Shown: positions 8,344 to 48,369 of the stretch, in pieces
Position numbering within the stretch: the first letter of the stretch is position 1
Layout: each line of letters starts with the position of its first letter
NCBI RefSeq assembly: GCF_000426345.1
Contig: NZ_AUFE01000017.1
Location: 1 to 64,000 of the forward strand
Origin: Cupriavidus phytohabitans
GTDB lineage: Bacteria; Pseudomonadota; Gammaproteobacteria; Burkholderiales; Burkholderiaceae
DNA length: 64,000 nucleotides
Direction of reading: 5' to 3'
Translations under genes and position numbers: made by a program
Notes under the pieces: generated by a model
What the model was told of the DNA's origin: nothing
The model's input: only the letters and a program-made list of their open reading frames with translations
The model's database searches: none

Positions 8344-8624
8344 GGTTCATCGAGGAATACCGGGGAAGGCTGCTGGGTCCGGGCCACTCTTCGCCTTGGC
8401 GGTTGAGGGCACGCATGCCGATAAACATGCGCGCTCCATGGACGCACGGCAGCGCGGCTTTTAAGCTTTCGCCAGTTACGCAATTGGCGAATCCGTCGAC
8501 CCAAAACAAGTGTGCGGCGCGTGGTTGTTGGGCTTTAGGGTAAGTCCAGACAGCGGAAGTTAGCCAGCCATCCGTACGCCAGGTCTAGCCTTGGTTCCCT
8601 GCAAGAATGACTTGGCGCTTGCTC

Positions 8625-8653
8625 AGAAAAGAAAACCCCTGCATGCAGGGGTT
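8625..8653 (-). terminator. Terminator of the H-NS gene
   Basis: AACCCCTGCATGCAGGGGTT (8634-8653) is a perfect palindrome; on the minus strand it is followed by TTTTCTTTTC. It lies about 35 bases past the stop of the H-NS-like gene. Confidence 0.85.
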
Positions 8654-8687
8654 GGACGCTATGCTGTCGGACGGGCGAGGGCCTGAA

Positions 8688-8999
8688 TTACGCCGCCTCT
8701 GCGATCAGGAACTTGTTGGGGTTCTTGCCCAGCCAGGCCGGTTGGCGACCACGGCCGGACCACGTCTTGCCGGTCTTCGGATCTTGGTATTTCGGGGGCA
8801 GCGCCGATTTCGCCTTGACTGTGCCACTGCCTGCCGGACGGCCACGACGGCGCTTCGTAATGTCGTCGACAGTCAGCCCGTATTCGGCCATCAGATTCTG
8901 AATCTGTTCGATGACCGATGCGACTTCATTGGCACGTACTTCTTCCAGGTGAGCTTCCAGGGCGGCCTTCTGCGCCATCAGTTCCTTGTAGGTTGCCAT
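8688..8999 (-). CDS. H-NS family histone-like DNA-binding protein
   Basis: A 103-residue nucleoid protein. The N-terminal half (LMAQKAALEAHLEEVRANEV...) is a coiled-coil oligomerisation region. The C-terminal half carries the betaproteobacterial H-NS core KYQDPKTGKTWSGRGRQPAWL, whose basic/aromatic loop contacts AT-rich minor grooves, preceded by an RRRGRPAGSG AT-hook-like linker. It probably silences horizontally acquired DNA, and it sits in a scarred region. Monocistronic with a clear terminator. Confidence 0.9.
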   Translation of the reverse strand: MATYKELMAQKAALEAHLEEVRANEVASVIEQIQNLMAEYGLTVDDITKRRRGRPAGSGTVKAKSALPPKYQDPKTGKTWSGRGRQPAWLGKNPNKFLIAEAA

Positions 9000-9000
9000 T

Positions 9001-9608
9001 TACTGTTTTCCTTTCCTCGAGAGATCAGATAGAAGGCAGTTTAATACCATTTGAAACTTTATGGCAGAACAATTTACCTCTCTCCGGATTATGAACGGTC
9101 AAAAAGCGTGAAGGCTCTAAATCATCACCAGCAACCTAGAGGCAATGCTGGAAAATGACTAGACATCGCCGCGTTGCTGCGAGAAGCGCCATGCGATGAC
9201 CAATGGGAACAGCGCTATCTGGACGCACATAGAACTATTGACCGGCTGTGTGCCACTCCCCAGGCATGAGCGAGAGGGACCAGCTAACCCGGGAATGCCC
9301 CTTACCTTAGTTGAAAGGCAAGGCAGCCTCCTTTCGGGCGAAGCGTATGCCTGATTCAGGTTTTCACAAGGCTGTTGCCACCAATGAGAGCCAGTACAGG
9401 ATGCAATCGCTCGCTTCCAGGCAATCTGACATGCAACACCTGCCTGACGAAGTACTTGGCGAGAACCGATACCTGCTCTCCGTGCGCTAATTCTGAGCGC
9501 TTTAACGGCAACGGGCTTGCTTCTATCTCCCTTCCAGCATTTCAGCTTTTGGGCCTCGTTTTGGCCAAAATCGACGGATTCCGATTACAATTTTGCGACG
9601 CAACATGA
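9001..9608. other. Gene-free stretch between H-NS and the next ORF
   Basis: About 600 bases with short frames only, none recognised. The part next to H-NS (9001-9110) is AT-rich and presumably holds its promoter. No repeats or RNA folds stood out. Confidence 0.4.
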
Positions 9609-22864: not shown

Positions 22865-23107
22865 ATGCGTCTCAGATCCGTGCAAGTACTTGTGGCCCTG
22901 ACCGTGCTGGGCGCTTGCGCCTCGAAGACCGACGGTACCCAGCCCGGAAAGACGGCCGCGGACGAGCGGCCTGGCGTGCCAGTCGGCCCCAGGCGCGACT
23001 GCCAGGCAGAGGCCGACGCGCTTCTCGGGACTGCCCCTCTGTCCGTTGTGCGGGCCGTGTTTAACTCCTGCACGGCGGAGAACCGAGGTAGCAAGCCAGG
23101 CCAGTGA
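22865..23107 (+). CDS. Small lipoprotein, hypothetical
   Basis: An 80-residue protein: signal MRLRSVQVLVALTVLGAC with a lipobox LGAC, then a short mature part with two further cysteines (DCQAEAD, FNSCTAEN). The Met at 22865 gives a normal signal length; an upstream Met at 22853 adds four residues. Function unknown. Confidence 0.6.
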   Translation: MRLRSVQVLVALTVLGACASKTDGTQPGKTAADERPGVPVGPRRDCQAEADALLGTAPLSVVRAVFNSCTAENRGSKPGQ

Positions 23108-23224
23108 GATCCTGGCGTATTCGTTCCGAAAGCGCGCTTGATGGAAGCAAGGACGGGAGAATGGAATTTGGGGAGGTGACGCAATGACGATGGAGCATTT
23201 TGCTGACCTCCCGCCTCCCGCGAC

Positions 23225-26200
23225 CTACGCGTCCACGTAACCCTTGCGCAGTTTCTCCGCCACCAGCTTGTCCATCTCGCGCCGGGCCCGCTCGGCGCTG
23301 TCGAACGCCTTCACGCTCGTTTGCCCCGCGCTGCCGATGCGGCCATAGGTGACGCAAAGCTCCGCCCCCCGCACGCTGGCCCGCCAGAACTTGCGCGACG
23401 TACCCTGCTCGAAGCGCAGCGTCTGCGTGAACGCTTCTTGCACATCCAACGCGGTTGCCGCCGCCTGAAGTTCATCCGTTTCATCCGTTGCGGCTGCGCC
23501 GTGCAGGGTGGCAGGCTTCGCCAACGGGGCCGCCATCTCCACCTCCACGTCAAGTGCGCGATCTTCGCCTTTGGCCAGCATGGCTTCGATGCGGGCAAGC
23601 ACGGCGTCCCGATCGTCGAGCCAGTCCTTGCCCGGGATGTCCAGCACCCGCCAGCCGAAGCTGCGCAGGATGCCGGGACGGAACACATAGCGTTCAGCGG
23701 TATCCGTTACCGCCTCCGACGGCGAATCGAGCAGGATTGCCAACGCGTAGCCTTGTCCCGACGGCTCGGCAATGGCCAGGTCGCAGCGGAACTGCGAGCG
23801 GCCAACGTTGGCGTGCACCTGGTGGCCGCGCGCGCGCAGCGCCTCGGCCAGAGCGTCGCGGATGCTGTCCGGCGTGGCCTCGCGCGTGAAGACGTCGCGC
23901 GCGCCCGGGTTCAGCGTGCCAAGCACCGCCTGGGCACGCGCGAACTGGCCGCGCGCGCTGGCCTGCGCGAACTGCAGGAACGCCCGCAGCGCGGCCGCGC
24001 CATCGTTGTGCACATTGGTGATCGCCTCGGCCTGGATCGTCGACACCACCGCCATCCGATGGCGCGCGCGGCTGAAGATCACGTTCAGGCGCTTCTCGCC
24101 CCCACGCTGGTTGATCGGGCCGAAGTTCATCAGCATCTTGCCATCCGGCCCCGGCGCGTAGCAGATGCTCAGGATGATCACGTCGCGCTCGTCGCCCTGC
24201 ACGTTCTCCAGATTCTTGACGAACAGCCCGTTGAACTGGTCGTCGTCCTCGCGCACGTACTCGCGCTCGAGGCGCATCGCGAAGTCCGCGTCTTCGGCGG
24301 CCAACGCCTCGAGCGCTGACTCGATGGCGCCCTGCTGCGCCTCGGAAAACGCCACGATGCCCAGGCTCAGCCCGGTCTCGCGGCACAGCATCTCGCGCAC
24401 GGTGCGGGCGATGTAGACAGCCTCAGGCGCATTGCGGCGGTCCGCATAGACGCCGTCGGCCAGCCAGTGGAAGCTGACTGGCCGTGCCAGCAACGCGTCG
24501 GCGCCAGCAATGCCGGCATCCTGCTGGTCCGAGCGAAGCCGAGCCGCCTCATCCTCGGCCTGTTCCAGCACACGGTCGGGAATGGTGACAAGGCGGCCGT
24601 CGTAGAAGGCGGCGTTGGAGAAGCTGATCAGCGATTCGTGACGGCTGCGGTAGTGCCACGCCAGCAGCGTCGCTGGCAGGTTGCGCGCGGCCTGGTTCAG
24701 CAGGCTGTCCGAATCGAGGTTGATGGCGATGCGGTCGCCCTCCTCCTCCACCACGATCTCGTCGTCGCCCTCGGCGCCACCGGCCGTAAAGAAGCTCGTC
24801 GGGGGCAGCTGCATCTCGTCGCCGACCACTACCACCTGGCGCGCGCGGCTGAGCGCGGGCACGGCCTCCTCGGTCGGAATCTGGCTGGCCTCGTCGAAGA
24901 TCACCACGTCGAACAGGTCCGGCGACAGCGGCAGCGTGTCGGATACCGACAACGGGCTCATCAGCCAGATCGGCTTCAGGTCGTTGATGACGAGGCCGGT
25001 CTCGTCGTCGGAGAGATCGCGGATCGAGCGGTGGCGCATGCTCTTGCCGAACTCATGCTCCAGTTCGCGCCGGCCCGTGGCGTATTGCCTCTTGAACGCC
25101 TTGCCGTCGGCATCCAGCATCGTCGCCGACAGCGAGGACACGCGCACATGCTCGGCGAAGTGCTTGTGCCGCGTGGCGCGCACCACCTGGGCGTTCAGCG
25201 CGAGCAACTCGCGTTGACGCTGCGCCACGGCGCGCGCCGCCTGTGCCAGCGCCGCGCCGCCGCAGCGCGCCAGCACCGGGTTCTCGCGCGCGAGACGGCG
25301 CAGCGCCTCGTCGGCGACCAGCGCCTCCAGCTGCGCCGGGGCATGGTCGAGCCACTGCAGCGTGGCGGCGCAGGCGGAGTCGCCCGCATGCACGGCGCGC
25401 AACAGCGGCAACAGGTCCGGCAGCTCGTCGAGCGCTTCGCGCAGGTCGCGCAGCAGTTCGGCGATGTCGCCGAGGCGCGCATCGCCGGCCAGCGCCAGCC
25501 CGTCGCGCACGCGCTGCGCGAGCTTCTCCAGCGCCTCGCGCGCACCGGCCTCGGCGCGCGCCGCCGCGATCGGATCGACGGCCTGGCGCAGATGCGCGAC
25601 CAGTTCGCGCGGGCCCGCGCCCGACTGCAGGCGCTGCTCGAGTTCGCTGAGTGCGCGCAGGAAGGCCTGCATCTCGCTCACGCCGTAGCGGCGGCGGCTG
25701 TCGGCATCGGCTGCCGCCAGCGCCGCACACGCGGCGTGTTCGGCGGCCAGCGCTTCCAGCACCTTGCCGTAGCCGGGATGGATGGCGTGCTTGCCAAAGT
25801 CATAGCGGCGCTTCAGTTCGCCGCGCAGCCGCCACCATGCGGGCTGCAGCCAGCGCGCGATCGACGGCTCCAGCCGCCGCGCGAGCGCCAGCGCCGACTC
25901 GGTATCGCCAGGGCTCAGCTTGTCGTGCCAGTTCGACGTGACGGCGCGCGCGTCCGCAAGTGCCTGCGTGCGTGCGTCCAGGTCCGCGCGGACATCGCGC
26001 AGTGCCGCTTGTGCCGGCGAGGCCGGATCGAGCAGGTCCAGGTGTGCGGCAAGGCCCGTGTCGAGCAGCCATTGGCTGTCGACGGCAATGGCGCATGCCT
26101 GTTCCAGGCTGGTGTCCGGGCCGGTAAGGCTCGCCGTGCTGTCCAGCAGCGGGTCAAGCGCATCGAACAGTGCCTCGGCGTCCTGGCACAGTCGCTCGGC

Positions 26201-28753
26201 GCGGCCATACGCGCGCTCGTCGGCCACCAGTTGCGCAGACAGGCGCGCGAACGGATGCGCGGCCAGGCTGTCGAGACCGAAACGCTCGCGCATCGCGCGG
26301 TGCACGCGGTGTGCAAGATCGCGCTGGCGGTCCCATGCGGCCAGCGCCGGCAGGCGCTCGCGCATCGCGGGCCCCGCTTCTGGCACGGCAGGGAGCGCTA
26401 CCACGCGGCGCAACAGTGCACGCACGCTGTCGCCGAGTGGCTCAGGCGCCGCGGCCATTGCCGATTCGAAGGCGTCGATACGATGCTGGTGAGCGGCCAG
26501 GGCCTCCGCTACCTGCTTGCGGCGTGCCGCCAGTGCATCGCCGTCGTGCGGCTGCGCGATCCACTGCTCGTAGCAGGCGCGCAGGTCGGCAATGAAGGCC
26601 TTCTTGTCGGTCTGCGAGTCGTGGATCAGGCAGCACAGCGAATCCAGCCCGCTTTGCTTGAGCCGATGGAACACCACGTCGAGCGCGGCCCGCTTCTCGC
26701 AGACGAACAGCACGCGCTTGCCACGCCCCGCGTAGTCGGCGATCAGGTTCGTGATGGTCTGCGACTTGCCCGTGCCCGGCGGGCCCTGGATGATGAAGCT
26801 GCGCTGGCCGCGCGCAAGGCCGACCGCAGCGTTCTGCGTCGCATCGGCCGCCACCACGTTCCACTGCTCGGCCGGCGCGAGCGGCGCGGGCGCTTCCGTC
26901 TCCACGTCGCGCGGCTCGATCGAGAACACGCGGTCGAACGCCGGATTCGCGCCGGGCTCGTCGAGCAGCTGCGCGTAGTCGCGCACCAGCGACATCTTGC
27001 GATAGTTGAAGTTCGCGAGCGTCACCTGCGTCAGGTCCAGATCCCAGGCATAACGGTGGCCCTCGGACGCCTCGAGCACGAAACCCTGGCGCTTTTCGCT
27101 TTGCGCCGCGGCGGCGCCGCTCATCTGCGGCTGGCGCGGGCCGGCACCCGGGGGCGCGCCAGCCTCGAAACGCTGCGGCAACTCGCTCGGCCGCACCCAA
27201 TGCTCGAACAGCGCGCGGCCCAGCGGGCGGTAGTCGTCCTGCGCATAGCTGTACGGCGGCAGCCAGCCGCCCGTGCGCGCAGCGGCCGTGCCTGGCCTGC
27301 GACGCTGGAACTGCTGCATCCGCTGCAGCGCCTTCTGCCGCACCAGCCGTACGGCGGCCTTGTCGACGAGGCGCAGCTCCACCGAAGGCTCGGAACGGCG
27401 AATCTGCGCGAGAATGCCGGCATGGATCTCCTCGAGCGACGTCTTGCCGAGATCCACGGTCTCCTCGAGCCGGATGTCATAGAGCTGGCTCAGGTAATGG
27501 CGCAGCACCGGGTTGAACTCGGCTTCGCCGCCCGCGCACTGGATCACGTACTGGTCGCGCACGCCCTTGCGCCTGACCAGTTCCACCGGCAGCCACAGCA
27601 GCGGCGTCACGATGCGCTCGTCCGGCGCCTCCTTCAGGTTGTGCCAGCGCAGGAACGCCACCACCAGGCGCAGGTTGCTGAAGCCATATTCGGCGCGATC
27701 GCGGCGCGTCTCGGCGATCAGGCGGTCGAGCGATGCCGGCAGGTATGGCTGGTCGTCGAAGCGCAGCCAGCGCTGCAGCGACACCGGTTTGCCCGCCACC
27801 AGATCGGCTGCGAACGGGCCGCCCCAGGTGCAGATATGCTCGGGCCGCACGCTTTCGACCTGCAGCATCAGCGGCACGCTGGCCACCGTCAGGTTGACAC
27901 TGGCCGCGGTCGGACGGAAGTGCAGCAGGCGGTTGCGCCGCGACAGGTCGAACAGGCGGTCACGCAGGTGCGTGAGCACGGCGGCACGCCGCGGCGTGGC
28001 GCCAGTCGTGCCAGCCAGCGCCCGTTCCACGTCCAGGGCTGCCGGCTGCTCGCGCCATGTGCGCAGCCGCGTCACGAGCGCGGCGACATCGGTGGCGCGA
28101 TCGTGGCGGTTGATCCAGGTCATCTCGACGATCACCGCGGCGACGATCGGGTGCAAGCGCTCGTGCAGCAGGAACAGGTTGCGGCGGTGCGCCACGAAGC
28201 TGCGCAGATCGTGCTCATCGGCGAAGTCCAGGCCGCAGGCGAGGCTCGCCAGCACCATGCCGAGCAGGAAGACATCGCCGATCTCGTCATGGTGGCCCAG
28301 AAGCCCTTCCCAGCTCGCCGGCCCGCGCAGGTAGACCGGGCGCTCGATCGGCGCGGTGGCATCAAGCTGCAAGGCCAGGTCGGTCTGGTCGCGCTGCCCG
28401 TCGTCGGCGTGGCCGAGCTGCAGCGCGCCGACGATATTCAGGCCCGAGGCCGGATGCGGCTGCACGCGATGCACCGCGCCGAGGTCCATGACGGGGAGTT
28501 CGCCATCCGGCCGCCGCAGGCGCAGCGCGCCGTCCTCGCTCACCAGTATGCTGTCGGGATCGAGTGCCGCCACCCTGCCCTGCGCATGCAACGCGGCGAC
28601 CTGCGCGAACAGGGGCAGCACCAGCACCAGGACGTCGTCGACAGGCAGCGCCGCGCCCGCCTGCGCATCGATCAGTGACCGCAGCGTGCGCGGCTCGCCG
28701 CTATCGTTCATACCGGCGATGGTGTTCGTGCCGTGGGTCGTGCTGTCATTCAT
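23225..28753 (-). CDS. DUF4011 / SF1 helicase / nuclease / WGR multidomain protein (Hhe-like)
   Basis: An 1842-residue protein. Residues 40-235 resemble a kinase C-lobe without HRD or DFG (LHAQGRVAALDPDSILV; GDVFLLGMVLASLACG), so a pseudokinase. DUF4011 starts near 258 (RDRLFDLSRRNRLLHF). Walker A GPPGTGKS is at 657-664, Walker B FDEAS at 1286-1290, GDEMQLPP at 1311-1318, HYRSRH at 1367-1372, and arginine-finger motif VIFSRARHR at 1558-1566; the 620 residues between Walker A and B are largely helical. Residues 1624-1715 fit a Vsr/MTES_1575-type nuclease (FRCDLAI, LAILLD, GWRVLDIPGKDW), and 1773-1837 a WGR domain (VTYGRIG). DUF4011-helicase-Vsr architecture is known from the single-gene anti-phage system Hhe. 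The start overlaps the upstream peptidase stop. Confidence 0.9.
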   Translation of the reverse strand: MNDSTTHGTNTIAGMNDSGEPRTLRSLIDAQAGAALPVDDVLVLVLPLFAQVAALHAQGRVAALDPDSILVSEDGALRLRRPDGELPVMDLGAVHRVQPHPASGLNIVGALQLGHADDGQRDQTDLALQLDATAPIERPVYLRGPASWEGLLGHHDEIGDVFLLGMVLASLACGLDFADEHDLRSFVAHRRNLFLLHERLHPIVAAVIVEMTWINRHDRATDVAALVTRLRTWREQPAALDVERALAGTTGATPRRAAVLTHLRDRLFDLSRRNRLLHFRPTAASVNLTVASVPLMLQVESVRPEHICTWGGPFAADLVAGKPVSLQRWLRFDDQPYLPASLDRLIAETRRDRAEYGFSNLRLVVAFLRWHNLKEAPDERIVTPLLWLPVELVRRKGVRDQYVIQCAGGEAEFNPVLRHYLSQLYDIRLEETVDLGKTSLEEIHAGILAQIRRSEPSVELRLVDKAAVRLVRQKALQRMQQFQRRRPGTAAARTGGWLPPYSYAQDDYRPLGRALFEHWVRPSELPQRFEAGAPPGAGPRQPQMSGAAAAQSEKRQGFVLEASEGHRYAWDLDLTQVTLANFNYRKMSLVRDYAQLLDEPGANPAFDRVFSIEPRDVETEAPAPLAPAEQWNVVAADATQNAAVGLARGQRSFIIQGPPGTGKSQTITNLIADYAGRGKRVLFVCEKRAALDVVFHRLKQSGLDSLCCLIHDSQTDKKAFIADLRACYEQWIAQPHDGDALAARRKQVAEALAAHQHRIDAFESAMAAAPEPLGDSVRALLRRVVALPAVPEAGPAMRERLPALAAWDRQRDLAHRVHRAMRERFGLDSLAAHPFARLSAQLVADERAYGRAERLCQDAEALFDALDPLLDSTASLTGPDTSLEQACAIAVDSQWLLDTGLAAHLDLLDPASPAQAALRDVRADLDARTQALADARAVTSNWHDKLSPGDTESALALARRLEPSIARWLQPAWWRLRGELKRRYDFGKHAIHPGYGKVLEALAAEHAACAALAAADADSRRRYGVSEMQAFLRALSELEQRLQSGAGPRELVAHLRQAVDPIAAARAEAGAREALEKLAQRVRDGLALAGDARLGDIAELLRDLREALDELPDLLPLLRAVHAGDSACAATLQWLDHAPAQLEALVADEALRRLARENPVLARCGGAALAQAARAVAQRQRELLALNAQVVRATRHKHFAEHVRVSSLSATMLDADGKAFKRQYATGRRELEHEFGKSMRHRSIRDLSDDETGLVINDLKPIWLMSPLSVSDTLPLSPDLFDVVIFDEASQIPTEEAVPALSRARQVVVVGDEMQLPPTSFFTAGGAEGDDEIVVEEEGDRIAINLDSDSLLNQAARNLPATLLAWHYRSRHESLISFSNAAFYDGRLVTIPDRVLEQAEDEAARLRSDQQDAGIAGADALLARPVSFHWLADGVYADRRNAPEAVYIARTVREMLCRETGLSLGIVAFSEAQQGAIESALEALAAEDADFAMRLEREYVREDDDQFNGLFVKNLENVQGDERDVIILSICYAPGPDGKMLMNFGPINQRGGEKRLNVIFSRARHRMAVVSTIQAEAITNVHNDGAAALRAFLQFAQASARGQFARAQAVLGTLNPGARDVFTREATPDSIRDALAEALRARGHQVHANVGRSQFRCDLAIAEPSGQGYALAILLDSPSEAVTDTAERYVFRPGILRSFGWRVLDIPGKDWLDDRDAVLARIEAMLAKGEDRALDVEVEMAAPLAKPATLHGAAATDETDELQAAATALDVQEAFTQTLRFEQGTSRKFWRASVRGAELCVTYGRIGSAGQTSVKAFDSAERARREMDKLVAEKLRKGYVDA

Positions 28754-29967
28754 GCCCGGCCCTCCCTGGCCCGTTGGTGATCGGACTGGCGATCGAGCTG
28801 GCGCTGGTAGCGGTCCAGTTCGCGCTTGCCGAAGCCGGCGTCGCGGCGCAGGTTACCTTGCAGCGCTTCGACGCTGCCGAGCCCCTGAGCCATCTGGCCG
28901 GCGCGCAGCAGGGCCGCGTCCTGCTGGTCGGGGTCCGCGAGTGCCAGGTCCATCATCAATGCGTTCAGATAGCCGCGAACGCTGTCGTCGATCACGCCCT
29001 GCCCCAACTTTTCGGGATCGATCGCCGGTTCATCGTCACGCCAGTCCGGGAACATCATGCGCACCTGCGCAAGCACCGCCTCGCTCGCCAGCGGCGTGCC
29101 GGCGAGAAAGTGAGCCAGGAATCCGCGCGTGAGCGCCTGCAACCGGACCTGTCCGGGAAGGTCCAGCTTTTCCAGCGCCAACGGGCCGTGCAGGCGGGAT
29201 TCGATCCACGGATCAAGATCGGCCGCGCCCTCCCACCACAGCGCCAGCGCGCGGGCGCGGATAAAGGTCTCGGGGTGGCTGTGGGCGGCGCTCGCGCCCG
29301 GCTCGCTGGATTCGATCTCGACCGCCTGGCGCAGGTAGGCGGCCGCGTCCACGCTGCCCATGCCGGTCTGCACCTTGACCAGCGTCGACACCGCCGGCGC
29401 CACCGCACCGGCCGCCACGGCGCCGCCACGGTCGGCAAACAGTTCGGTGTGCAACGCGTAGCGCCGCCAGGTCTCGCGATGGCTGGCACTCGCGCCTGGC
29501 GCGGCCAGTGCGTCGTTCAGGATGCGGTCAGCCACCAGGAACTGGTTGTCGTCGCGCGACCACAGCAGGTAGTGGGCCAGCTCGTGGCCGAACACCGCCA
29601 GCAGTTCCGGCGGCGCGAGCCGCTCCAGCAGCGGACCCTGCAGGACGATGTGGACCTCCCCGGGCACATAGACCAGCGACGCGTTCATGTCCTGGCCCGG
29701 TGACTGGTAGAGCGTTGCGCGCGCTTCGACGCCGAGCCGCGACATCGCCTGCGCCAGCGCCGCGTGGACGTCGGCGTGGGCGTCAGCCTCGATCCGGTAG
29801 GTGTCCCGCAGCAGCATCGAGCGCAACGCGTCGCGGTGGTCTGCGCCGGTAGCGCGAGCGCTGGCCCAGCGCCAGACCTCAGGCTCGTGGCGACGCAGAT
29901 AGTCGACCACCGTTGCGTGATAGGCCAGCGGCAGCAGCGCGCCGCGATCCGGGGCTTGAGAGTCCAT
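28750..29967 (-). CDS. M48-type zinc metallopeptidase coupled to the helicase gene
   Basis: A 405-residue soluble protein with HELAH at residues 128-132 (zinc His128, His132; catalytic Glu129) and ELFADR at 175-180 supplying the third ligand Glu175, as in M48 peptidases. SHPETFIRARAL (230-241) is the conserved M48 HP...R segment. No signal peptide or membrane helix is seen, unlike HtpX or BepA, so it should act in the cytoplasm. The C-terminal 60 residues are charged and helical. Its stop overlaps the helicase start by four bases, so the two are translated together. The ATG at 29967 was chosen over an unsupported frame extending to 30843. Confidence 0.85.
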   Translation of the reverse strand: MDSQAPDRGALLPLAYHATVVDYLRRHEPEVWRWASARATGADHRDALRSMLLRDTYRIEADAHADVHAALAQAMSRLGVEARATLYQSPGQDMNASLVYVPGEVHIVLQGPLLERLAPPELLAVFGHELAHYLLWSRDDNQFLVADRILNDALAAPGASASHRETWRRYALHTELFADRGGAVAAGAVAPAVSTLVKVQTGMGSVDAAAYLRQAVEIESSEPGASAAHSHPETFIRARALALWWEGAADLDPWIESRLHGPLALEKLDLPGQVRLQALTRGFLAHFLAGTPLASEAVLAQVRMMFPDWRDDEPAIDPEKLGQGVIDDSVRGYLNALMMDLALADPDQQDAALLRAGQMAQGLGSVEALQGNLRRDAGFGKRELDRYQRQLDRQSDHQRAREGRA

Positions 29968-30122
29968 GCGGGACGTTCCAGGGTTGGTGGTAGCCGATTC
30001 TACAAGGTGGCGATCGCCAGGGGAGCCTCCGCGGCAACTTCCCGCGCGAGCCTGTCCGCATGCCGCGCCGTGTAAACTCCCGCACTGGCCGATCGCCGAA
30101 CATCTCCTACCTGAGAAAGAAC

Positions 30123-30572
30123 ATGACTCGACAACCACTTCGTACGCTGTGCCTGACCCTGCTGCTGAGCGCTGCCATTGCCCCGGCGCTGGCCGATGAC
30201 CTGAAGAACGCTGCGGGAGGCGGCCTTGGTGGCGCCGCGGGTGCGGCCCTCGGTGGCGCACTAGGCGGCAGCACGGGCGCCGTGATTGGTGGTGCGGTGG
30301 GTGGCGGTGCGGGCGGCGCGGTGACTGCCAACAAAAAGGAACGCACGGGCGCCATCGTGGGTGGCGCGCTCGGCGGCGGCGCAGGCGCGGCGGCCGGCAA
30401 TGCCCTGGGCGGCCGGACCGGCGGCATCGTGGGTGCCGCGGCCGGCGGTGCAGCGGGGTCGGCGCTGGGCGGCAATGTATCCCGCAACAACCATGCCGAT
30501 AACCACGAAAGCGGCAATCGCGGCAATCGCGGCAAGCACAAGGGTCAGAACAAACATCGCCACAACGACTGA
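30123..30572 (+). CDS. Glycine-zipper secreted or membrane protein
   Basis: A 149-residue protein: signal peptide ending ALADD, then repeated GG-x-GG-AA blocks (GLGGAAGAALGGALGGS, GAVIGGAVGGGAGG) typical of glycine-zipper domains, and a polar His/Asn/Gly-rich tail (RGNRGKHKGQNKHRHND). Such proteins insert in or bridge membranes; function unknown. GAGAAAGAAC precedes the ATG. Divergent from the peptidase-helicase operon. The internal repeats also create long spurious frames on the other strand. Confidence 0.75.
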   Translation: MTRQPLRTLCLTLLLSAAIAPALADDLKNAAGGGLGGAAGAALGGALGGSTGAVIGGAVGGGAGGAVTANKKERTGAIVGGALGGGAGAAAGNALGGRTGGIVGAAAGGAAGSALGGNVSRNNHADNHESGNRGNRGKHKGQNKHRHND

Positions 30573-32269: not shown

Positions 32270-32491
32270 TCAAGGATTGCCGCGAACCTTGCGCTCACGG
32301 TCCACCGCCTGCTGAATGTCGCGTTCGCACTGACGCGAAAGCTGCCAGCTCATCCACATGACGACGATTGGGCAGGAGAGCAGAAGGATAGCGAGCAGTA
32401 TCGTGAGTGGTGAAATGCCAAACCAGTACACGACGGCGACGGCTAGCAGCGTCGCCAGTGCCGCGCAAATCCATGCGACAGTGCGCCTCAT
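32270..32491 (-). CDS. Small two-span membrane protein of the P-ATPase operon
   Basis: A 73-residue protein with two membrane segments ([19 protein letters not shown] and [19 protein letters not shown]) and a charged tail ([19 protein letters not shown]). Its ATG overlaps the P-ATPase stop by four bases, so it is co-translated with the pump and may be a small regulatory partner. Confidence 0.65.
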
Positions 32492-34944
32492 GTTGCCTCC
32501 GTACGGGCTTGGCCAAGCCGCACACGCTTAAGCAACGCGGAGTTGGCCACGACGCTCAATGAAGACAGCGCCATGGCCGCCGCTGCAAGTATGGGGTTCA
32601 ACAGCCCGAGCGCCGCGATTGGAATGCCTATAGTGTTGTAAATGAACGCCCAGAAGAGGTTTTGCTTGATTTTGCGCATCGTGGCGCGGGAGAGCTGGAT
32701 AGACGCCACTACGTCACGAACATCATTGCGGATGAGGATGATGCTGCCCGTCTCCTTGGCAACGTCAGAGCCAGAGCCGATAGCGATACCGATGTCGGCC
32801 GCCGCAAGTGCTGGTGCGTCGTTTACGCCATCGCCCACCATCGCCACGACATCGCCCTGTTTTTGGAGGTCATGGATGGTTTGGACCTTGTCTTCCGGCA
32901 TGACCTCGGCAATCACGCGGTCGATGCCAACCTGCCGGCCAATGGCTTCGGCCGTGCGGCGATTGTCACCGCTGAGAAGAACCACTTGGATGTTGCGCGA
33001 CTTCAAGGCGGCCACAGCCTCAGCCGCCTCCGGCTTGACCGTGTCCGCGACGGCCACCACGCCAAGCAGGCTGGTGGCGGCGCCAACCAGCATCGCGGTC
33101 TTCCCGTCGGCCTCGAGCCGGCGGAGAACAGGTTCGACATCACCAATCGGAATCCCCTGGCGTGCAAACAGACGCCGGTTTCCCAGCCACACCTGCTGGC
33201 CTTCAACCTGTCCGTGAATGCCCATGCCAGACAGCGCAGTAATGCCGGTTGCCATGGGAATGGCCACACCGCGATGCTGGGCGGCACGCACGATGGCTTC
33301 GCCCAGAGGGTGCTCAGACCTACTTTCCACCGCGGCCGCAAGGGTCAAGAGAGTTGATTCCTCCTGATTCGACAATGAGATGACATCGGTGACAGTAGGC
33401 TCTCCGCGCGTAATCGTGCCCGTCTTGTCAAAGACAACCGCCGTCAGTTTCTCGGCGCGCTCCAGCACTTCGCCACCGCGTATCAGGATGCCATTGTCTG
33501 CCCCCTTGCCGACGCCAACCATCAGTGCCGCAGGTGTCGCGACACCCAGGGCACATGGACAAGAAATAATCAGAACCGCGACAAACGCAAGCAGCCCATG
33601 GGGGAAATGCCCCGCCACGGTCCACCCAACCAAGGCCAACATGGCAACCGAGACAACCGCCGGCACAAAGTAGCCAGTGACCTGATCAGCGAGGCGCTGA
33701 ATCTGCGCGGTGCTGGCTTGGGCATCCTCGACCATCCTGATAACTTGGGCGAGCGCGGTGTCAGCGCCGATCTTGGTCGCCTGGAAGGTGAAAGCACCGC
33801 TGCGGTTCAGGGTCCCGCCAATGACGGCGGTACCGGGCTTCTTCTCAACGGGCATCGACTCGCCAGTCAGCATCGACTCGTCGACACTGGTCTCCCCCTC
33901 GACGATCTTGCCATCCGTGGGAATCTTCTCGCCCGGGCGCACTACGACCGCCTCGCCGACCATGATGCTTTCCGCCGGAATCTCGGTTTCCTTCCCGTCG
34001 CGGATGACGTGGGCTACCGCGGGACGCAGGTCAAGCAGTCGGCGAACGGCGGCAGAGGACTTCTTCTTGATGATTTCCTCCATGTACTTACCCAGCAACA
34101 CGAAGGCGATAATCACCGCGGATACCTCGAAGTAGACGTCCCGCTCTTCCACTTCTACGGGTAGCCACGACGGAAAGAACAGGACCACCACGCTGTAGAA
34201 ATACGCCACGGATGTTCCCAGGGCGATGAGGAAGTCCATGTTGATGTTGCGCGTCCGGATGGCGTTCCACGCGCCCTTGTAGAAGCTCCAGCCGCCAACG
34301 AACTGCACAGGCGTTACCAGCAAGAACAGCCAGATCCCCCACGTGAACCATGGCAGCGCCGGAATCGGTGCCCACGTCAGCAGCGTCGCACCGGCCGCCA
34401 ACGCCAGGAAGGCGCCGGCCCGTAGCACTGCCAACGCGAGGACGCCGGTGAGCGCTATCGTCACGCGCGTCTTCATGGCCTTCAACTCGCTCTCCGGCGA
34501 CTCGAAGGTCCGCAGGCAACTCTCGCTGCAGAAGTAGTACTTGCGGTTGCCGCGCTCTGTCGACAGGGCCGTAGGCTTGTCGACCATCATGCCGCAGATG
34601 GGATCCTTGGCGAGTTGCCTGGAGCCACCGCGGGGCGGCGCGTGAGTAGTCATGGCGGGCGGCGCAGCGCTAGCATCTGCCAGGGGAAGCTCGCCTGATG
34701 GCCGGGGAATATATTGCGCAGGGTTGGCGAGGAACATCTGCTCGCAATGTTTTGAGCAGAACCAATAGCGCCTTTGGTTGACATCTGCACTGGCAGCAGC
34801 ATCCCCGGGAGAAATTGCCATGCCACATACCGGGTCCCGTACTGGCACGTGACCTGTGCTCGCATCTTGGACGGCGACTTGAGGTGCCTGCGCATCGCCA
34901 GTACCGTAGTCGTCCCCTACGGGAGTCATAGACTTGGTCGGCAT
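32488..34944 (-). CDS. P1B-type copper-transporting ATPase with two YHS-type domains
   Basis: An 818-residue metal-efflux pump. Two N-terminal YHS/TRASH-like metal-binding modules are present (DPVCGMAIS...[12 protein letters not shown] and DPICGMMVD...[12 protein letters not shown]) instead of HMA domains. The P-ATPase core has TGES, the transmembrane CPC in [12 protein letters not shown] (Cu+/Ag+ class), DKTGT with the phosphorylated Asp, SEHPLG, and [10 protein letters not shown]. The ATG at 34944 follows AGGAGG; 35085 has no similarity. A perfect FNR-type box at 35017-35030 suggests induction at low oxygen, as for pumps that supply cytochrome oxidase copper. Confidence 0.92.
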
Positions 34945-35016
34945 CTCATCCTCCTGGGGGCGATGGAGCAAGGCAGGACTTACATTTTCAGTATCGACAC
35001 CCAAGAGAACTGGTTC

Positions 35017-35030
35017 TTGATGCCAATCAA
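35017..35030. promoter_or_regulatory. FNR/ANR box upstream of the P-ATPase operon
   Basis: TTGAT-GCCA-ATCAA matches the FNR consensus exactly and is centred about 80 bases before the ATG at 34944. Symmetrical, so orientation is assigned by context. Confidence 0.7.
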
Positions 35031-35163
35031 GGAACGCGAATGCAGCGACGCCGTCGCGTGGCGACCCGGGTGCGCGACAGCGCACGAAAACTCAGGAGAT
35101 GGTGCGGGACACCGGCGCCGCGCGTTCGGAAGATATGCTCAGCAGTCGCCGGGCCTGCCGGGC

Positions 35164-36345
35164 TCAGAAGACAGGCAACGTTCCGGTCGCCAGTTCCTTG
35201 ACTAACGTGGGAAGGTCTGCCAGCTGCTGCCGGGCGATTTCACGGATGTGGTCATGTTCCACGGTCGTGAGCCTGTCTTCTGCAACAACATTGATGGCAA
35301 CCAGCTGCGGCTGGTCGATTGGCCTTCCAATGCCGGAGAGAAGGCGGACAACAACCATATCCAAATCGGCTACGTCCGTCAGAATGCGCGCAGCCAATTG
35401 GTGGGCGAGCACATTGTAGAGCTTGCCAACATGTGCCGCCGGGTTCTTCCCTGCGGTGGCCTCCAGTGACATGGGGCGATACGGTGTAATCAAGCCATTG
35501 ACCCGGTTTCCCCGACCGACCTGTCCGTCATCGCCGTGCTCCGCGCTCAGGCCAGTGACGGTCAGATAGACGCCACTCTCGTCATGGGCACCCAGGTCGT
35601 CCAGAGTATTGATGGCAATCTCGCACGCCGGTTGAATGCGCTCGGCAAGATACGACGCTATCCGCTCCTTCAGTGCGAAGTACTCTTTAACCCCGCTTAC
35701 GTATCGGTCAACAAACGCCAACGCGATAGTAAGGTGGCGGCTCGCATCGAGCCGACTGCCCATGATCTTGAAATCGTGTCCTGCCACGTTGAAAGCGGCC
35801 TTGAATTCACTTGAGCGTAATAGTTGGGCGGATGAAAGCACGGCCATTTCGAGGTTTGAAAGAGGTGCGTAACCCACGCCAAAAGACGTGTCATTGGATA
35901 GCGGAATGGTTTGGGTACCAGTCACACGCCGGAGGTTTGGGGCCGACGGTCGAAGGATGGGCTCAATCTCGATTTCGCAACCGATTGTGCCCAGGTGGTC
36001 CCTGAAGTACTCGCGGATGGCCGACTCGACGATGACCTCCGCCTTGGCGGATGACAATTCGGTGACGGGTCCCGACACCAACAGGCGCATTGGCCGCAAG
36101 AGCTGGCCGCCGCCGAATTTTGGTGCACTGATGCCGCCGATGAGTAAGGCCTTGTCCAGGTTGAAATGCTGGATGACTCCGTAGGCGTCCAGGTACGCCC
36201 GACACAGGGCACGGGCCGCAGCCTCAACCGCACCATCGCAAAGGCTATCCGGGTGTCCGACGCCCTTGTGCTCGCACATCTCGGTCGGTCCTATCCACCC
36301 TGGGGCAGTAGAAACGGAAATCGCAATGGTCCCGGCGGTCGACAT
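35164..36345 (-). CDS. Archaeal-type methionine adenosyltransferase
   Basis: A 393-residue S-adenosylmethionine synthetase of the archaeal family (PF01941 type), unrelated in sequence to bacterial MetK. Conserved stretches are [44 protein letters not shown], and [19 protein letters not shown] precedes the ATG at 36345; a Met at 36360 is the alternative. Bacterial copies are sporadic and sit among respiratory or stress genes. Here it is upstream of a metal-pump operon that includes a methyltransferase-like protein, so local SAM supply is a possible role. Confidence 0.88.
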
Positions 36346-36763
36346 CACTCCCCCCAGCACGGAAGCGCCATATGGCCATTCTATGCTGCCGGCCCATGGC
36401 CCTAAGTTTGCCTTTTTCGAATGCTAACCTTCTGTCGAGCCTGCAGCGCAAGCGTTGGATTTGAGCCAGGTATGTGTGCCCGGTCTACCATTAACAACAC
36501 ATACTTTGAATGACCGAGACGGGTTGGCCTGGCCGCAGGCCTCCTCCACCAGGTGGGGCAGCCTTACTTCGGCGGGGTGGGTCATTTTTACATCGGGGCT
36601 TACAGGAAAGAACCTGTTGACGTGGATCAATGACCCGCGCCGGCCAGCCACTATCTTGGTGAAGCACAACCCTCACAAGCGTTTGAACGGGCATGCAACG
36701 ATAACCTACGCACTGGCCCAAACTGTGGGCCGGGTTGCGTGGCAGCACAGACAGGAGAAAAGC
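36346..36763. other. Intergenic region upstream of the MAT and DUF3606 genes
   Basis: About 420 bases, without a gene I trust; a long + frame from 36455 merges into the DUF3606 gene but has no similarity before 36764. It holds the FNR-type box at 36617-36630. Confidence 0.4.
36617..36630. promoter_or_regulatory. FNR/ANR-type box upstream of the DUF3606 gene
   Basis: TTGAC-GTGG-ATCAA has one base different from TTGAT-N4-ATCAA. It lies 134 bases before the ATG at 36764; a -41.5 placement would give a start near 36665. Confidence 0.55.
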
Positions 36764-46995: not shown

Positions 46996-48303
<1,308 letters not shown>

Positions 48304-48369
48304 GGGGCGTGGGGGCTTGGGCGGGGCGGCATCGGGGGGGCCGCGCCATTCTGCCAAATCCCGCCATTA

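Follow-up and report, generated by a model that had tools for sequence, protein, structure and literature searches.

Helicase-nuclease machines constitute a major class of bacterial immunity, and the closest profiles to the giant helicase described here are those of three defence families, ProA (NF058533; 699 bits), the PADLOC candidate PDC-S37 (683 bits) and Hhe (NF042953; 459 bits). This helicase and an M48-type zinc metallopeptidase are encoded by a pair of genes on the reverse strand of a 64,000-nucleotide (nt) stretch of Cupriavidus phytohabitans (contig NZ_AUFE01000017.1, positions 1 to 64,000; hereafter the window). ProA, with PDC-S37 the best-scoring named relative, has the same order of motor and nuclease fold, and Hhe has DUF4011, a superfamily 1 (SF1) motor and a Vsr-like fold in common with the helicase of the pair, in which both DUF4011 and the motor were recognised. 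Nevertheless, the helicase scored below the curated cut-offs of ProA (1500) and Hhe (2000), whereas the PDC-S37 model, matched best over positions 215–1370 of its 1550, has no cut-off. Hhe is a single gene, whereas the pair comprises two genes and shows a lost nuclease motif and a kinase-like lobe, and the catalytic Vsr-type nuclease motif of Hhe was not found in it, Glu being replaced by Leu in 22/22 aligned paired helicases. By the curated cut-offs the pair is distinct from Hhe and ProA, and its point of interest is the proposed change of effector. The sister controls, 20 DUF4011 helicase loci of 20 kb each (19 from the sample of the source family and one other), keep the ECD nuclease motif and have no M48 neighbour; among their called open reading frames (ORFs) neither the peptidase profile nor the kinase-lobe profile (A3) found a match. 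The balance of the sequence features tips slightly towards the pair being a helicase-controlled zinc protease, derived from a defence-type helicase-nuclease with a changed effector.

Hachiman variants may serve as a precedent in principle for a protease under the control of a helicase. According to the available text of PMC12799240, a trypsin-like protease in HamA, together with the HamB helicase, activates the pro-nuclease HamM, the active sites of protease, helicase and nuclease all being required; in basic Hachiman, as the accessible part of PMC12278908 describes it, HamB holds the nuclease HamA in check until DNA damage is met. These variants combine a helicase sensor with a protease, as is proposed here for the pair, but their protease is trypsin-like and accompanied by a neighbouring pro-nuclease, whereas the pair has an M48 zinc protease and no conserved third gene, and neither M48 nor metalloprotease nor DUF4011 is named in the main text of PMC12799240. 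Similarly, SPRTN and Wss1, whose proteolysis depends on DNA binding (PMC7782752, in its available text), are HExxH metalloproteases beside a nucleic-acid binder, as would be expected for the pair, but they belong to a different protease family, and the match of the pair's peptidase to the SprT-like family (PF10263) was weak, with 17.5 bits against a cut-off of 25.6. The preliminary description of the locus, made from the sequence alone, knew of no system with this exact pair, and no description of an M48 and DUF4011 pair was found in the open PubMed Central literature, which is weak evidence of absence, subscription journals lying mostly outside it; nor was a paper found there on ProA as an anti-phage protein.

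The distribution of the pair was evaluated in 84,980 genomes, one for each species of bacteria or archaea, which were scanned for two conserved peptides of the peptidase; relatives without both peptides would be missed. This yielded 58 peptidase loci in beta-, gamma- and alphaproteobacteria, Cellulomonas and Nocardioides, and a helicase homologue was found directly downstream of the M48 gene, on the same strand, in all 58, with a 1- or 4-nt stop/start overlap in 48/58. The junctions comprised 35 overlaps of 4 nt, 13 of 1 nt, one of 8 nt (L049) and six gaps of 2–3 nt, three others having broken frames that precluded measurement (L031, L041 and L048) and nine of the 58 having been read from printed sequence. 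Within the genus, 13/60 genomes had the peptidase, and the identical 13 had the close helicase adjacent to it (the peptidase of G157 is split between contigs, and G183 and G193 have broken frames), while three further genomes held a distant sister helicase only. The family sample gave the peptidase in 1/150 genomes, namely the source genome, and a related helicase at E 1e-50 in 25/150, the full-length type being confined to the source genome. Because the 58 loci had been found via the peptidase, a reverse search with the N-terminal domain of the helicase was run, and it returned 3 of 398 phylum genomes, source genome included, with the peptidase just upstream in each. When 36 carrier genomes were searched whole, each of the 36 had a single copy of this helicase and of this peptidase (three Nocardioides carriers also gave a second, weak M48 match), and the distance matrices of the two proteins were correlated (r = 0.97, n = 45 loci), a correlation that ignores shared ancestry. 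Chance neighbourhood was ruled out by the 58/58 loci together with the shared 13/60 genus distribution, and the recurrence of the pair in two phyla is far beyond chance. In the loci examined, the peptidase and the helicase are a strictly coupled two-gene unit, and the pair is not core, as the genus, family and phylum samples show (13/60, 1/150 and 3/398, respectively). The adjacency of M48 genes to helicase homologues, which the preliminary description had proposed to check, was therefore borne out from both sides (58/58, plus 3/3 from the helicase), as was its view of the pair as a variant distinct from Hhe (58/58 loci, 13/13 genus carriers and 3/3 in the phylum sample, with a score short of the Hhe cut-off). 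Additionally, the paired helicases formed one clade (22/22, support 0.98) in a midpoint-rooted motor tree of 42 sequences.

The helicase had been described as carrying a Vsr/MTES_1575-type nuclease, and the fold was recovered (Pfam MTES_1575, 53.0 bits, cut-off 38.2), but a working active site was not, the Glu being lost in all scorable cases. At alignment position 1674 all 20 sisters have Glu (motif ECD), whereas all 22 paired proteins have Leu (LLD or LVD), and the first Glu of the sisters (16/20) is replaced by Arg or Val in all 22; Asp1658, Asp1676 and Arg1688 are retained. Counted by locus, the catalytic ExD motif was found in 0/51 scorable paired loci versus 31/34 control loci, the other three controls not having been found by the nuclease pattern and two genes having been counted twice (L066/L089 and L068/L104). 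Seven of the 58 loci were not scorable by this pattern (L020, L021, L041, L046, L048, L056 and L061), of which L020 shows LLLD in the alignment, and the other two loci from the phylum sample show VLLD and ILVD at the motif. Of the 6,856 relatives obtained with an actinobacterial member as query, the best 120, query included, likewise lack the Glu. The Glu at 1674 is taken by us to be catalytic from the PD-(D/E)xK/Vsr pattern and from its invariance among the sisters. The ratio of nonsynonymous to synonymous substitution rates (dN/dS) of the domain was 0.07–0.17 in four comparisons, close to that of the motor (0.04–0.10), though these values are rough, several dS being about 1 or above; such ratios indicate purifying selection rather than decay. 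The nuclease domain of the paired helicases thus looks catalytically dead yet conserved. In the PDB, the nuclease profile of the sisters (A7, motif intact) had a weak match (E 1.3e-4) to the RAP-domain proteins in a solved complex; RAP, an RNA-binding relative of this nuclease fold, would be an earlier example of a nuclease converted to binding. Many Kribbella proteins (P0157–P0242) among the relatives listed fall in the helicase clade without the nuclease motif, and one Kribbella M48 homologue is among the peptidase relatives listed.

The DUF4011, SF1 motor and WGR domains named in the preliminary description were all recovered, the Pfam matches for M48, AAA_11, AAA_12, WGR, DUF4011 and MTES_1575 lying over their curated cut-offs and the six motor motifs examined being intact in 22/22 aligned paired helicases. 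The closest solved structure to the motor was that of IGHMBP2/SMUBP-2, an Upf1-like SF1 helicase, and the WGR domain matched an uncharacterised Bacteroides protein among solved structures. WGR was absent from the four aligned actinobacterial members and from the precomputed Pfam list of every one of the 120 relatives listed above, although some of these bear 'WGR' as source name. The linker at residues 1731–1775 is fast-evolving, its dN (0.32–0.76) exceeding that of every other segment in the comparison. The earlier domain list was correct in what it named but missed an N-terminal lobe at helicase residues 15–248, which was recognised as having the fold of a protein-kinase C-lobe; the HxD pattern that would supply the catalytic Asp of the HRD motif was found in 0/33 sequences.

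The peptidase was assigned to M48 both by Pfam (PF01435, 36.0 bits, cut-off 20.3) and by the possession of HExxH with a downstream Glu. An alignment of 35 peptidases from Cupriavidus to Nocardioides, Actinobacteria included, shows no variation at H128, E129, H132, E175 and H231-P232, and HExxH was present in 212/212 homologues longer than 340 amino acids (aa), out of at least 218 retrieved, with a downstream pattern of the ExxADR type in 202/212. The Glu of the ELFADR region is presumably the third zinc ligand, as judged from what is known of the M48 family. HtpX and other M48 peptidases share HExxH and the Pfam M48 match with the peptidase of the pair; HtpX is a membrane protein, whereas no membrane-spanning stretch was found here (maximum 19-residue Kyte-Doolittle mean of 1.44), and the nearest solved sequence, an HtpX homologue, was not a significant match (E 0.23). 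The preliminary account of a 405-residue HELAH peptidase without membrane helices, overlapping a 1842-residue protein by 4 bases, agreed with the coordinates, the Pfam match and the hydropathy. Motor and protease motifs have therefore been kept in the paired clade in which the nuclease motif was lost.

It is this combination, namely the coupling, the intact motor, the intact protease, the dead but conserved nuclease and the docking-type lobe, that argues for a motor controlling a protease. As to the physical complex, the direction of control, the substrate and the biological role, we infer an arrangement in which the immune-type DUF4011 SF1 motor would engage nucleic acid, the ancestral PD-(D/E)xK nuclease, once inactivated, would be retained for structure or for binding nucleic acid, and the kinase-like lobe would offer a protein-docking surface. 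The M48 partner would be the effector, licensed once the motor has bound, or is moving along, the appropriate DNA or RNA, and would then cut a target protein, whether of phage, of the host or on the nucleic acid itself. Since the vicinity of the pair holds no conserved pro-nuclease gene, the target is probably encoded elsewhere. The preliminary description had suggested that helicase sensing could unleash proteolysis or be restrained by it; the control of a protease by the helicase is a reasonable inference from these data, the interpretation as a whole being only partly supported by them. Several points weigh against a helicase-controlled protease: the loss of one motif is not proof that all cleavage is lost, Asp1658 and Asp1676 remaining in place; no intermediate was found that would fix the order of nuclease loss and protease gain; no neighbouring substrate gene is conserved among flanking ORFs of at least 100 aa; and the helicase could instead be the substrate of the peptidase or be regulated by it. 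A wider picture is tentative and is offered with low confidence, in which an immune-type helicase clade would have given up DNA cutting, taken on a zinc protease and left the defence islands for chromosomal life, giving a nucleic-acid-triggered protease switch, possibly a bacterial counterpart of SPRTN and similar proteases that depend on nucleic acid; the kinase-like lobe of the helicase would dock the protease or its substrate. A clade with a lost nuclease motif and a constant zinc protease represents a natural experiment in effector swapping, and the pair offers a two-gene test bed in which to ask if an SF1 motor is able to switch on proteolysis.

The genomic setting was examined for signs of defence, the preliminary description having proposed to ask if the pair lies in defence islands. 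The two sets of flanks were scanned with PADLOC models by an equal procedure, ORFs longer than 900 aa being excluded from both. Two families were found at 1e-10 in 135 ORFs from 41 pair loci, a TAP-like hydrolase and a borderline capH, versus 62 families in 75 ORFs from 20 sister loci, including GajA, HamA, AbiEi, DrmD and AriA. Many of the 62 are redundant GajA models, with at least seven distinct ORFs separable, and four of the 10 ORFs chosen for recheck had matches. The pair figures cover 135 of 149 chosen ORFs from a home-made ORF caller, 17/58 loci having been dropped as near-duplicates, for lack of a flank or for redundant synteny; the contrast is strong, although the two sets do not match perfectly, since the sister set comes mostly from one family and the pair set spans phyla. 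Within the window, PADLOC models matched only one of the ten ORFs tested. This ORF, 17 kb off, is a sigma-54-type regulator (46996–48357) whose AAA_HTH part strongly matches RtcR/PspF-type PADLOC models (332.7 bits) and which is probably an ordinary sigma-54 activator. The neighbours of the pair show no island signature. An island setting was thus not supported, and, of what the preliminary description had named as telling against its interpretation, half was observed, there being no island signature but neither rare adjacency nor a core locus (13/60 congeners).

These results bear on the first alternative, in which the pair would be an anti-phage or anti-plasmid system of the Hhe/ProA superfamily lying outside islands, its helicase sensing invader nucleic acid and its peptidase killing or arresting the cell. 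This is somewhat unlikely on the sequence evidence. The closest profiles are those of defence families, the distribution is patchy (13/60 congeners and 3/398 phylum genomes), and a relative with a pair 97–98% identical to the source pair (G155) has mostly different neighbours, but the flanks of the pair are without the defence genes found beside the sisters, the peptidase was found on 0 of 72,556 plasmid and 0 of 50,697 phage records and was confirmed in no viral contig, and a downstream neighbour common to nine alphaproteobacterial loci suggests a settled chromosomal site there. Carriage of the peptidase by phages, viruses or plasmids was ruled out by the zero matches in those collections, which may omit records close to the source genome. 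For the helicase query, 409 plasmid records gave partial matches, all of them short of 80% coverage; ten of these (35–38% coverage, 33–37% identity) were sister-type DUF4011/DUF3320 proteins, and one other record carried a 60–80% identical piece.

The neighbours of the G155 pair differ beyond about 600 nt upstream, the right flank of the window lying on another contig (84%) and pieces of the left flank on two others, and a 605-nt piece of the left flank (80%) lies on the contig of the pair, about 6.5 kb off and on the opposite side of it; as this is a draft, contig placement is suggestive only. Within the genus the pair seems to change its chromosomal site, by movement or by shuffling, yet keeps its downstream neighbour in the nine alphaproteobacterial loci. 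The guanine plus cytosine (G+C) content of the pair block (window 23000–30000) was 0.67–0.73, compared with 0.57–0.64 in the surrounding 15–23 and 31–40 kb, but this is partly general, since pair G+C exceeded that of the flanks in 46/53 loci (mean +0.03). Flanking repeats were sought as insertion scars in the two border regions, each searched singly, and none was convincing. A contig labelled Rhizobium rhizogenes (L043) has an Imm42-like ORF at 8587–9168 upstream of the pair; its pair groups with sphingomonad copies and has their downstream neighbour, so that transfer and a wrongly labelled or contaminating contig are equally likely.

A second alternative, which we regard as unlikely, is a role in maintenance of the SPRTN/Wss1 kind, in which the motor and the WGR and dead nuclease domains would bind blocked nucleic acid and the metalloprotease would degrade crosslinked or tightly bound protein; loss of the nuclease would be an advantage in such a role. 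The dead but conserved nuclease, the dependence of SPRTN and Wss1 proteolysis on DNA binding (PMC7782752, available text) and the weak SprT-like match are in keeping with it, but that match stays below its cut-off, the pair is patchy within the genus, WGR is missing from the four actinobacterial members, and LexA boxes are not enriched upstream of the peptidase (strict boxes in 0/58 regions; a relaxed gamma/beta pattern in 5/58 versus 3.8 expected), on which grounds regulation of the pair by the SOS response was rejected. Between the two, patchiness favours defence, whereas the absence from islands and the absence of the peptidase from plasmids favour maintenance. A third possibility, that the peptidase serves the maturation or safety of the helicase, which it would cleave or turn over (e.g., at the linker 1731–1775) and which would be the sole effector, is improbable, for although the strict coupling (58/58), the high dN of the linker and the lack of a conserved third gene as substrate accord with it, a helicase that has lost its nuclease motif is of uncertain effector activity. 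For annotation, caution is suggested, since DUF4011 defence genes called by profile (PDC-S37, 683 bits here) may include a non-island group with a different effector.

Table 1. Positions in the window of the two genes, their domains and motifs, and the adjoining ORF.
Feature	Position	Strand	Remarks
M48-type zinc metallopeptidase gene, predicted soluble	28750..29967	(-)	405 aa, first of pair; Pfam Peptidase_M48
HELAH zinc-binding/catalytic motif	29572..29586	(-)	residues 128-132; H128, E129, H132 invariant 35/35
ELFADR motif, third-zinc-ligand (presumed Glu) region of M48	29428..29445	(-)	residues 175-180; E175, A178, D179, R180 invariant 35/35
ATGA stop/start overlap joining peptidase and helicase genes	28750..28753	(-)	4 nt
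Giant helicase gene	23225..28753	(-)	1842 aa, second of pair
Degenerate protein-kinase C-lobe	28010..28711	(-)	helicase residues 15-248; without HRD-type Asp, no room for N-lobe
DUF4011 domain	27491..27958	(-)	residues 266-421; Pfam 54.1 bits, cut-off 22.2
Helicase motor, first part with Walker A GPPGTGKS	26549..26845	(-)	Pfam AAA_11 67.9 bits; Walker A identical 22/22
Helicase motor, second part (motifs II DEAS, III GDEMQLPP, V, VI)	23954..25078	(-)	Pfam AAA_12 52.5 bits
MTES_1575/Vsr-like nuclease fold, predicted catalytically dead	23564..23866	(-)	residues 1630-1730; Leu1674 where sisters have Glu
WGR domain	23231..23413	(-)	residues 1781-1841; Pfam 59.2 bits
Divergent glycine-zipper ORF	30123..30572	(+)	Pfam Gly-zipper matches around their cut-offs

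The coordinates, strand, protein lengths and ATGA overlap of the pair were all exact on recheck. The M48 frame stays open 5' of 29967 and would give 697 aa if read from an upstream ATG, but 29967 is the likely start, since close homologues start at the same Met. A scan for promoters and terminators was about at chance (one promoter-like site versus 0.4 expected and four terminator-like sites versus 4.0). When flanking ORFs of at least 100 aa were clustered in search of a third operon gene, no family was common to more than nine loci, and the sets found represented clade-level synteny. The glycine-zipper ORF adjoins the pair in about half of the genus carriers (G000, G155, G163, G167, G175 and G176, partially in G183) and lies away from it in G162 and G179; it is optional. 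Other neighbours in the window are genes for a TauD-like dioxygenase and for CHASE-GGDEF, deacetylase-like, ICMT and metallo-beta-lactamase-fold proteins, as well as a P-type ATPase with YHS domains (32488–35085) beside an S-adenosylmethionine synthetase gene (35164–36360).

ProA proteins over the cut-off were found in two sister loci, L089 and L104. The source genome itself holds a true DUF4011 helicase of the ProA family (2291 bits; L089, G000:C40:44001-64000, and L066) beside an AbiEi-like ORF, and contig C143 has another fragment that is ProA-like. In a subclade of the sisters (L101–L103), two genes peculiar to it, of 214 aa and 607–693 aa, lie upstream in the same orientation, and L085 has one of 609 aa; the larger gene was PDC-M37B/DolB-like where checked singly (L085 and L101), and this perhaps represents a separate partnered variant.

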